NCBI GenBank assembly: GCA_018065895.1
Contig: JAGHSK010000045.1
Span: 1 to 64,000 of the forward strand
Length of the DNA: 64,000 nt
Source: Candidatus Cacconaster equi
Lineage (GTDB): Bacteria > Bacteroidota > Bacteroidia > Bacteroidales > UBA932
Direction of reading: 5' to 3'
The position numbers were made by a program, and so were the translations under genes. The notes under the pieces were generated by a model. The model worked only from the letters and a program-made list of their open reading frames with translations. It was not told where the DNA came from and did no database searches. Below, piece by piece: positions 7,143 through 9,869 of this stretch (position 1 is its first letter; each line of letters starts with the position of its first letter).

Positions 7143-9869
7143 ATGGACAAACTCACCATTTTCCAACGTATTGCTGACTCCTTTGTAAAGAACATGATAG
7201 TTGAAGACAGGTATATGCTTATTCTGCAAGGCCTGCTGACGACAATTCTCATAACGGTTTTCGCATCTATTCTCGGAACGATTCTCGGTGGCATCGTATG
7301 CTGGATGAGGATGCGCGGAGGCAAAACCGTTCAGAAAATAGCGAAACTGTACGTTGACATCATGCGCGGGACACCTGTACTGGTGCTGCTTATGATAATG
7401 TACTACATTATTCTGGCCCCGGTCATCGAATCCGCGATAATTGTTGCCATCATAACCTTCTCCATGAACTCATCCGCATACATATGCGAGATGCTCCGAT
7501 CCGGAATAGGGTCCATCGACAAGGGGCAGACGGAGGCCGGGCTCTCCCTGGGTTTCAACAAAAGGCAGACTTTCTTTCACATTATCTTTCCACAGGTTGC
7601 CAGAAAGACACTACCTGTATACCATGGTGAGCTCATAAGCCTGCTCAAAAGCACTTCAATCGTCGGATACATCGCCATAATGGATATGACCAAGGCTTCC
7701 GACCTTATCCGTTCAAGAACATTCGACGCATTCTTCCCTCTCATAATAGTTGCCATACTCTATTTTGTTCTCGCCTGGCTGATCGGGCTGCTTCTGGATT
7801 TCATCAGCAAGAAGCGGACAAAGGGGTTTGTCCCGGCCATGGCAATGATTACAGCAGTTTTGATGGTTCTATGTTGTGAAAGTCCGGACAAATCATCCAA
7901 AACTGAGGAAAATCAAACGTTCACCTCTATAGAAGATGTGGCCAAGCGGGGCAGCGTGGCAGTTATGGAGGGGTCAATCTATGACATAGAGTACACCAAA
8001 CGCTATCCCAATGCCAAGATTGAAAGGGTGAAGAATATTTCCGAAGCTGCCGAGTTCGTTCTATCAGGAAAGGCTACTGCACTGATAGCTCTTGATGTTC
8101 AAACAAAATACGTGATGAGGGAGAATCCGGAGCTTACGGAGATGGATTCGCTCTTTTCAGCCGCTATGGGAGCAGGATTTCCGAAAGGCTCGCCTCTAAA
8201 AGACAAATTCAACGTTTTTCTCGAGGAGCTGAAAGCCTCACCGACCTACGATGAAATGATTCACAGATGGATAGAATGCGACATCGACACAGTTGCAATG
8301 CCGGATCTGAAGCTGCCTAATTCAGGTAACGTACTCAAAATGGCCATAACGGGCACTCAGACGCCGATGAACACTGTGCGGGGAGATGAATACGTAGGGT
8401 TCGACGTCGAACTCGGGATGCGTTTCGCAAAATATCTCAACCGCCCGATCAAATTGGAAGTAACCTCGTTCCAGGGGCTTATTCCCGATTTGACAATGGG
8501 AAGGGTTGATATGGCCGTAAGTGACCTCATCATCACCGAAGAGAGAGCTCAGAAAATAGATTTCTCCAACATATATTACGACAGCTATGCGTCCATTCTC
8601 ATACTGAAAACGACGTTTGAAGGCACCGCCACTGAAAAAACCCACTCGTGGACAGTCCTTTATATCATACTCGCTCTCATTCTCCTGAGCGGCGTCTTCG
8701 CATATTGGAGAAGAAAGGTCTTTCAGAAAAAAGTCAGAGAATATATGGGAGATGCCTACGACAGCCAGACGCCGTTGAAGAAGGGTGACACGGTGATCAG
8801 CGTATCGCATCTGCACAAGAAATTTGAGGATGAGAAAACTGTTCTCAAGGACGTGAACGCCGAAATCAAAAAGGGTGAAGTCATTTCCATCATCGGCCCT
8901 TCCGGAACCGGAAAGAGCACATTCCTCAGGTGTCTGAATCTTCTTGACAGGCCGACAAGCGGAAGCATTTTCATAAATGGCAAGGACATCCTTTCACCTT
9001 ATGCCGATGTGCCTCTGCTCAGGCGCAGGATGGGTATGGTGTTCCAGTCGTTCAACCTGTTTGACGGTATGACCGTACTGGAGAACATCACTCTGGCACC
9101 TGTCAAACTGCTTGGAAAGACACATCAGGAAGCGGGAGAGAGGGCATTGGAACTGCTTAAGATAGTTGGCCTTGCCGATAAAATAGATTCATATCCGAAT
9201 GAGCTGTCAGGTGGACAGAAGCAACGCATCGCGATTGCAAGAGCATTGGCCATGGACCCTGAAATACTCCTGTTCGACGAACCTACCTCAGCTTTGGATC
9301 CGACTATGGTAAGTGAGGTGCTTTCAGTTATCAGACTTCTGGCAAAGGAGGGGATGACTATGATTGTCGTAACTCACGAAATGCGTTTCGCACGTGAAGT
9401 CTGCAATCGGGTATTCTTCTTGTCAGAGGGATATATCTATGAGGAAGGCACCCCGAAAAAGTTGTTCGACAATCCTCAGAAGGAGCTCACGAAGATTTTC
9501 ATAAATCAGATAAGGGAACTCACCTACACCATCGACTCACCGGCTTATGACTATCACGGGATGATGGGTGCAATGGTTGTGTTTGCTGAAAAATACAATA
9601 TGTCGTATCAGGTCATCACCAATCTTCAACTGGCCGTTGAGGAATCACTCGGAATAATGGGAGCCCCTGTAGGAACACAAATAAAGGTAACATATTCAGA
9701 AAAAACACTTGCTCTGAAAGTTACCGTAAGTGTACCGAAGGAGGTGCTTCCGTCACAGTTCAGTTCGGATGACAACAGAATCTCCAATTCGATTCTGCAC
9801 GGAATAAGTTCCGACTTTGAGCTCAAGGATGAGGATAGCAGCACAGTGCTGACCCTGACATTGAAATAA
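7143..9869 (+). CDS. Single-chain amino-acid ABC importer: permease, lobe-swapped binding protein, ATPase and C-terminal domain
   Basis: 908 residues, with no internal stop, that seem to hold every part of a polar amino-acid importer. Residues 1-227 are a HisM/GlnP-type permease with several membrane helices and the coupling motif EAGLSLGF. Residues 229-247 form another hydrophobic segment ending in Cys-Cys, like a relic lipoprotein signal. Residues about 259-378 match the second lobe of an SBP_bac_3 binding protein (VAVMEGS, FVLSGKATALIALD, then the closing helix with MIHRWI), and about 397-490 match its first lobe (YVGFDVELGMRFAKYL, LIPDLTMGRVDMAVSD, IDFSNIYY). Residues 503-523 span the membrane again. 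Residues 550-790 are an ATPase with Walker A GPSGTGKST (585-593), LSGGQ (688-692) and Walker B LLFDEP (709-714). Residues 795-908 vaguely resemble an RsbW-like ATP-binding fold. The topology is consistent: lobes outside, ATPase inside. The lobe order is an inference from motif order. Confidence 0.82.
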   Translation: MDKLTIFQRIADSFVKNMIVEDRYMLILQGLLTTILITVFASILGTILGGIVCWMRMRGGKTVQKIAKLYVDIMRGTPVLVLLMIMYYIILAPVIESAIIVAIITFSMNSSAYICEMLRSGIGSIDKGQTEAGLSLGFNKRQTFFHIIFPQVARKTLPVYHGELISLLKSTSIVGYIAIMDMTKASDLIRSRTFDAFFPLIIVAILYFVLAWLIGLLLDFISKKRTKGFVPAMAMITAVLMVLCCESPDKSSKTEENQTFTSIEDVAKRGSVAVMEGSIYDIEYTKRYPNAKIERVKNISEAAEFVLSGKATALIALDVQTKYVMRENPELTEMDSLFSAAMGAGFPKGSPLKDKFNVFLEELKASPTYDEMIHRWIECDIDTVAMPDLKLPNSGNVLKMAITGTQTPMNTVRGDEYVGFDVELGMRFAKYLNRPIKLEVTSFQGLIPDLTMGRVDMAVSDLIITEERAQKIDFSNIYYDSYASILILKTTFEGTATEKTHSWTVLYIILALILLSGVFAYWRRKVFQKKVREYMGDAYDSQTPLKKGDTVISVSHLHKKFEDEKTVLKDVNAEIKKGEVISIIGPSGTGKSTFLRCLNLLDRPTSGSIFINGKDILSPYADVPLLRRRMGMVFQSFNLFDGMTVLENITLAPVKLLGKTHQEAGERALELLKIVGLADKIDSYPNELSGGQKQRIAIARALAMDPEILLFDEPTSALDPTMVSEVLSVIRLLAKEGMTMIVVTHEMRFAREVCNRVFFLSEGYIYEEGTPKKLFDNPQKELTKIFINQIRELTYTIDSPAYDYHGMMGAMVVFAEKYNMSYQVITNLQLAVEESLGIMGAPVGTQIKVTYSEKTLALKVTVSVPKEVLPSQFSSDDNRISNSILHGISSDFELKDEDSSTVLTLTLK

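Follow-up and report, generated by a model that had tools for sequence, protein, structure and literature searches.

An open reading frame of 908 codons on the forward strand (positions 7143–9869), with its frame intact, encodes a half-unit of a polar-amino-acid ABC importer, whole in one chain. It lies in the window, the stretch of 64,000 nucleotides from Candidatus Cacconaster equi that was analysed here. The order along the chain is permease, membrane helix TM6, binding domain, membrane helix TM7, ATPase and a C-terminal tail with a predicted RsbW-like fold. Judged by its sequence, the binding domain belongs to the SBP_bac_3 family in circularly permuted form. An earlier note on this DNA had proposed a whole amino-acid importer in one chain with the binding-protein lobes in reversed order, and the profile and structure-database matches described below bear out both points. 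The RsbW-like domain and the gene neighbourhood of the relatives were missed there. We regard the protein as a variant of the type I amino-acid importers, all in one chain, that is probably controlled by, or reports to, a partner-switching system.

Domain architecture of the one-chain importer

Pfam matches were returned for a permease (BPD_transp_1), SBP_bac_3 and an ABC ATPase (ABC_tran). The permease, with five membrane helices, corresponds to residues 1–225 (7143–7817, forward strand, as for all features below), of which 45–225 match with 75.1 bits, and its sole PDB relative at E ≤ 1e-5 is the amino-acid ABC permease 4yms_D (E 7.4e-35). The ATPase, of GlnQ/HisP type, spans residues 551–785 (8793–9497; ABC_tran on 568–716 with 127.7 bits) and carries Walker A (GPSGTGKST), signature (LSGGQ) and Walker B (LLFDEP) motifs. 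A BPD_transp_1 permease is thus joined to a GlnQ-type ATPase with intact motifs, as in the importer family, for which ATP-driven amino-acid uptake would be expected by analogy. Scores against the NCBIfam models TcyN, GlnQ, EhuA and HisP all fall under their respective cut-offs, and none of the 25 matches listed reaches an equivalog cut-off. The C-terminal domain comprises residues 790–908 (9510–9866). The reading frame is flanked on one side by an opposite-strand gene, which we take to be ispF-like, and on the other by a small open reading frame followed by a further gene that is presumably mutL-like.

The binding domain is circularly permuted

In the genome search, positions 1–92 of the SBP_bac_3 profile matched at 8334–8609 with 72.5 bits, and positions 97–130 matched upstream of this, at 8037–8273, with 20.9 bits (alone below the curated cut-off). 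Both halves and the family motifs are therefore present, and the usual order, in which the first half (S1) precedes the second (S2), is not kept. The same swap is seen against structures. For the window sequence alone the top PDB match was 4ymx, in which protein residues 414–487 (query 169–242) align with chain residues 59–132 (53.3 bits) and residues 265–377 (query 20–132) with chain residues 142–258 (29.8 bits). A 41-row family profile aligned to AncQR (4zv1) with 126 and 109 bits, again with halves swapped, and a stand-alone relative of 260 amino acids (L068) matched 6svf with its residues 163–258 on 7–102 (85 bits) and 33–148 on 114–228 (62 bits). No permuted chain was found among the best 60 of 486 PDB matches for the 41-row profile, the best 60 of 240 for L068, or the best 60 of 111 for the window sequence. 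A full-length AlphaFold model calculated with two alignment rows reached a pLDDT of 35.8 and was set aside; the evidence for the permuted fold therefore comes from sequence comparison.

The half placed first (residues 260–380, 7920–8282) contains lobe 2 together with the C-terminal strand and helix of lobe 1. The old C- and N-termini are joined by a linker (residues 381–396, 8283–8330), after which the N-terminal part of lobe 1 follows (residues 397–492, 8331–8618). That the linker is short, as had been proposed, holds for relatives also: in 55 permuted domains, 15–28 residues separate the S2 match from the S1 match. The assignment of residues 259–378 to lobe 2 stands in part: this piece includes lobe 2, but its last approximately 40 residues presumably form the C-terminal strand and helix, which are part of lobe 1 in SBP_bac_3. 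Lobe 1 is then uninterrupted, and the chain is opened where it first crosses the hinge, directly behind the first hinge strand. The permutation would accordingly leave a single covalent crossing between the lobes.

The arginine that follows the ITxER motif (R468, in the S1 half) is conserved in all 41 alignment rows and is presumably the residue that binds the alpha-carboxylate in SBP_bac_3. The column that we take to be the usual site of the alpha-amino-binding aspartate of lobe 2 holds Leu317 in the window, with Asp318 next to it, and aspartate in 19 of the 41 rows; because of this replacement the substrate is uncertain.

Some relatives carry tandem S2-S1-S2-S1 arrangements, for which a normal binding protein nested within a split one had been suspected. 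Since stand-alone S2-S1 proteins exist, nesting is needless as an explanation for the family, although within the tandem proteins themselves a nested normal domain may be present. A separate case was observed in a binding protein from Oscillospiraceae (L026:4953-5741), in which the chain is circularly permuted in a different way: it begins with the C-terminal strand and helix of lobe 1, continues with S1 and finishes with lobe 2. Its new ends are at the second hinge, and its match to 6h30 runs over two tandem domains.

The C-terminal domain is predicted to have an anti-sigma-kinase fold

A model of the tail from AF2, followed by a fold search, indicated a fold of the RsbW/SpoIIAB/UsfX type; the model was calculated from two alignment rows and is weak around tail residues 81–100. 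Profile comparison also links the tail to the RsbW fold (control against an unrelated profile, 0.4%). The window tail was not matched by the Pfam profile HATPase_c_2; the L057 tail scored 13.4 bits, and the ATPase tail of genome G156 reached E 7.2e-5 and 24.8 bits, below the curated cut-off of 27.4. In the reverse direction, the tail profile matched stand-alone frames of 139–157 amino acids with E-values from 5e-6 to 4e-4; three of these are HATPase_c_2 matches, and one, in L127, matches the RsbW profile. Searched against PDB sequences, the tail profile returned nothing significant, its one chance match having E 0.34.

The asparagine of the N-box and the aspartate that follows it are both present in all six operon-encoded RsbW proteins, and neither occurs in any of 18 tails. 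The tail is predicted, on the strength of the model, to have the fold of an anti-sigma kinase that has lost its ATP site. A near-invariant Ser-Glu-Lys turn is found in the same 18 tails (YSEK in the window, residues 851–854, 9693–9704), with the glutamate in all and the serine and lysine in at least 90%, though the ATP-site residues are lost. In the titles and opening parts of abstracts of the open-licence PMC literature, no published description of an ABC ATPase that carries an RsbW-like domain is apparent.

Partner-switching genes recur near relatives

Split relatives encode the ATPase with the same tail as a separate gene, and some of these genes lie beside genes for STAS, HATPase_c_2 and SpoIIE proteins as identified by Pfam; the products would be an RsbV-like STAS protein, an RsbW that retains its ATP-site residues and an RsbU/SpoIIE phosphatase. 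In 17 genomes, selected by their permuted binding-protein matches, 11 of 79 SpoIIE genes are at most 10 kb from an ABC-tail gene, against 0.67 expected, and such a pair occurs in 10 of the 17. The binomial tail of 8e-11 takes no account of relatedness, and green sulfur bacteria make up seven of the ten genomes with a pair. Family f35 was taken as green sulfur bacteria because the FMO bacteriochlorophyll protein is present in all nine f35 genomes tested (partial in G115); it was found in none of six other genomes tested. Of 81 SpoIIE matches, the 79 used exclude two below the curated cut-off and include a fragment on contig C58 of G303 that is possibly part of its neighbour. The tail set comprises 25 of 29 matches, with three RsbW-like frames of 142–157 amino acids and one 456-amino-acid frame of G156 left out, and two half matches of G406 and a fragment (G288:C216) counted.

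At least one switch gene is present in 18 of 41 regions with split ABC-tail genes, and at least two kinds in 16; as the regions were selected by their matches, these counts do not give rates. The genome from which the window derives has SpoIIE and HATPase_c_2 matches on other contigs (C36 and C42) and a phosphatase-STAS-RsbW set elsewhere (L078). Two further gene arrangements were observed. A secreted binding-protein-like gene directly precedes a SpoIIE phosphatase gene in four regions (L057:1925-4874, L077:9109-11963, L078:7494-10362 and L080:1393-4241), so that the pair recurs and is found in the window's genome also; the first gene was identified as NMT1 by Pfam in L057 and by eye in the rest, and the L057 phosphatase has a Cache-HAMP sensor. 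In L107:8688-11021, L108:3-2336 and L111:32-1765 a phosphatase and an RsbW domain are fused in one protein, which adjoins the importer operon in L107 and L108.

The tail could be a leftover RsbW fold, serving as a clamp for the ATPase dimer or as a sensor of small molecules, with no link to partner switching. This reading has somewhat less than an even chance. It would fit the loss of the ATP site and the 23 of 41 split regions without a switch gene, as well as the six one-chain regions examined, none of which has one (L103 being a 5-kb contig); unrelated C-terminal regulatory folds also occur on other importers, for example MetN C2 and ModC, in the part of a review available to us (PMC10710835). 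Against it, SpoIIE, STAS and RsbW genes recur nearby, and three of the regions that have them come from the genus to which the window belongs (L077, chosen for a nearby SpoIIE match, L107 and L108). The available text of the same 2023 review of transporter regulation contains neither anti-sigma nor STAS (PMC10710835), and a link between nutrient uptake and an anti-sigma switch appears to have no published description in the portions of the open-licence PMC literature that were searched.

A working model for the importer

For the importer linked to partner switching, we envisage that two chains would form a complete homodimeric type I importer. The periplasmic Venus-flytrap of each, permuted at the first hinge, would be tied to the membrane by both of its ends, at lobe 2. 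The permease pair, common to both chains, would be loaded by each flytrap, and the pair of ATPases would power uptake. Docking of an unphosphorylated STAS protein on the tail would switch the ATPase pair on or off; alternatively, the importer would sequester the STAS protein and so report uptake to the switch. A more extensive version is possible but doubtful, namely that a family of amino-acid importers found throughout the phylum is hard-wired into partner switching. Here the pseudo-anti-sigma tail would compete with the true anti-sigma kinase for the STAS protein, the phosphatase would set uptake and importer occupancy would set sigma-factor release, and the receptor-like mounting of the flytrap, at two points on lobe 2, would pass ligand closure directly down TM7 to the ATPase and tail.

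The chain might instead act mainly as a sensor, in which amino-acid capture controls the switch via TM7, the ATPase and the tail, and transport is secondary. The binding domain is mounted at two points where glutamate-receptor-like channels have their mounting, and phosphatase genes lie beside relatives, both of which would suit a sensor. The ATPase and permease are, however, conserved across four aligned one-chain proteins and strongly constrained, and we consider a mainly sensory role improbable.

Membrane mounting and lipoprotein ancestry

Hydrophobic segments lie on either side of the binding domain, as had been suggested with slightly different limits (229–247 and 503–523). TM6 corresponds to residues 226–248 (7818–7886; hydropathy 2.43) and TM7 to residues 499–524 (8637–8714; hydropathy 2.59). 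Positive residues are on the expected cytoplasmic sides of both, KKRTK just ahead of TM6 and RRK...KK after TM7, which continues into WRRKVFQKKVR.

TM6 of the window carries a Cys-Cys pair at 244–245 (VLCC), from which a lipoprotein ancestor had been proposed. Relatives agree with this proposal. In a paralog from the same genome (L076) the sequence LLGGC is at the TM6 position of the window, and inspection by eye places a lipobox-like cysteine at the end of TM6 in four of the eight one-chain proteins, these being L076 and, with TSC or SSC forms, L075, L103 and L104. Split relatives start with lipoprotein-like signal peptides. The sequences suggest that TM6 descends from the signal peptide of a lipoprotein and was retained as a membrane helix. 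Two permeases of the importer family (L068:4726-5508 and L123:4698-7649) themselves begin with a signal peptide of lipoprotein-like type (AFAGC, LLTAC).

The same features allow for an internal lipobox that is still used, with signal peptidase II cutting after TM6 to give two chains, a permease and a lipid-anchored binding protein-ATPase. The LLGGC of L076, the TSC and SSC forms and the signal peptides of the split relatives are in its favour, but the VLCC of the window is not a proper lipobox, and L025, L105 and L123 have no lipobox-like cysteine at the TM6 end as seen by eye (L025 and L123 have an intrahelical one). Cleavage of this kind is unlikely, and we continue with TM6 as a retained helix in an uncut chain.

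The permuted order extends beyond the fusion

A search for the domain order across the phylum, a check put forward in the earlier note, found the permuted order in several families and the one-chain form in eight proteins; the latter is the rarer of the two. Of 59 regions collected, 55 were selected because they matched the permuted profiles or the tail profile, and four (L077–L080) were included for nearby SpoIIE or RsbW matches, so that the counts are not rates; some regions are short contigs. The 59 regions hold 25 stand-alone S2-S1 genes, 26 S2-S1-permease genes and six one-chain genes, with two S2-S1 copies ahead of the permease in 16 genes and three copies in five. One normal-order gene was found (L062); normal-order proteins get low scores from the permuted-family profiles (each half of L062 reaches 22 bits), and further ones were possibly missed. 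Among the matches listed, the full-length permuted ones are spread over families f1, f34, f35 (the green sulfur bacteria) and f52 of the phylum, and 174 of 392 genomes have a match to the permuted profile, many to one half only, which does not amount to a rate.

It had been argued that the permutation enables the binding domain to be threaded between permease and ATPase. Selection for threading would agree with the position of the domain ends next to both membrane helices. It does not agree with the stand-alone permuted genes (19 in the first 20 regions, 25 in all 59) or with fusions of permuted binding protein and permease that have no ATPase. In genomes such as G201 and G241 permuted binding proteins are lipoproteins of approximately 260 amino acids or precede a permease, and the tail search found no one-chain frame there; the permutation is therefore not tied to threading. 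Both ends of an ordinary SBP_bac_3 protein are on lobe 1, which would make threading feasible for an unpermuted domain as well. This explanation is thus very unlikely, and the distribution suggests that the permutation is older than the fusion.

Members and origin of the one-chain form

The eight one-chain proteins are that of the window, L076, L025, L075, L103, L104, L105 and L123, of which L075 and L103 have two tandem permuted domains. Tail-profile searches matched 14 of 40 genomes of the genus, some weakly, with six one-chain frames in four of them (G000, G020, G432 and G444), and 22 of 295 genomes of the order, with one more one-chain frame (G645). A scan of named genomes gave two loci, L025 and L026, and no relatives were found among the viral contigs searched.

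L025, from a Bacteroidaceae MAG from horse faeces, is 71% identical to the window protein. Across the five folded domains, pN is 0.13–0.16 and pS is 0.74–0.89 (near saturation), corresponding to pN/pS of approximately 0.2 in each; identity is 26% in TM6 and 20% in the 493–527 stretch that includes TM7. The window's genome is a draft (61 contigs, 84% complete), but with eight intact one-chain proteins and this degree of constraint in every folded domain, an artefact of fused genes, which the earlier note had listed among the refuting findings, or of degraded genes can practically be dismissed.

In the ATPase tree seven one-chain proteins form one clade (100/100) and L123 is placed elsewhere, which implies two changes. 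Between L105 and L123, however, the binding domains share 59% identity, and L105 is on a long branch and unusual in composition; the one-chain form may therefore have had a single origin, with exchange of the ATPase.

Comparison with known systems

The window protein has its permease, ATPase and binding-protein families in common with the 4yms/4ymx system and GlnPQ. In GlnPQ the binding proteins are fused to the permease and the ATPase GlnQ is separate (PMC8025302, in the part available). Both systems have the S1-S2 order and a separate ATPase, whereas in the window the lobes are swapped, everything is in one chain and the ATPase bears an RsbW-like tail. A complete importer in one gene would be a handy object for single-particle and single-molecule study of the coupling between binding protein and transporter.

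The tail shares its predicted fold with the anti-sigma kinases RsbW, SpoIIAB and UsfX. It differs from them in having no ATP-site Asn or Asp, in a lid region that is shorter in the alignment, and in its fusion to an ABC ATPase. Should it bind STAS proteins, a single molecule would bring together nutrient uptake and anti-sigma switching.

A natural circularly permuted ABC binding lipoprotein is described in the available part of the report on Tp0684/MglB-2 of Treponema (Type Ic, Cluster Bc), whose authors raise a link of the permutation to membrane anchoring (PMC4990184). By analogy, the permutation seen here may be related to anchoring. The fold of Tp0684 is Type I/cluster B and binds sugar, and its chain is cut at a different place, which requires a fourth hinge crossing; the window instead has a Type II SBP_bac_3 domain cut at the first hinge.

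A parallel for the position of the cut is seen in glutamate-receptor-like channels, whose membrane domain is inserted at these profile positions, with S1 before it and S2 after it. Two such channels with a TVGYGD filter were observed in genomes of the window's order (L011:1306-2505 and L014:1345-2487), having first surfaced as weak profile matches. In both, the S1 match ends at profile position 93, and the S2 match, of only 14–15 bits, starts at 3 (L011) or 1 (L014). Lobe 2 of the window also matches residues 168–250 of the kainate receptor GluK1 (whole-sequence E 9.6e-8, 35.3 bits), with no single stretch passing. A natural permutant of SBP_bac_3 appears to have no published description in the titles and first parts of abstracts of the open-licence PMC literature. 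The order is S1-membrane-S2 in the channels and membrane-S2-S1-membrane, within an ABC importer, in the window; the binding domain would be a naturally occurring circular permutant of the fold that binds ligand in glutamate receptors, attached to the membrane at the point used by the receptor domain.
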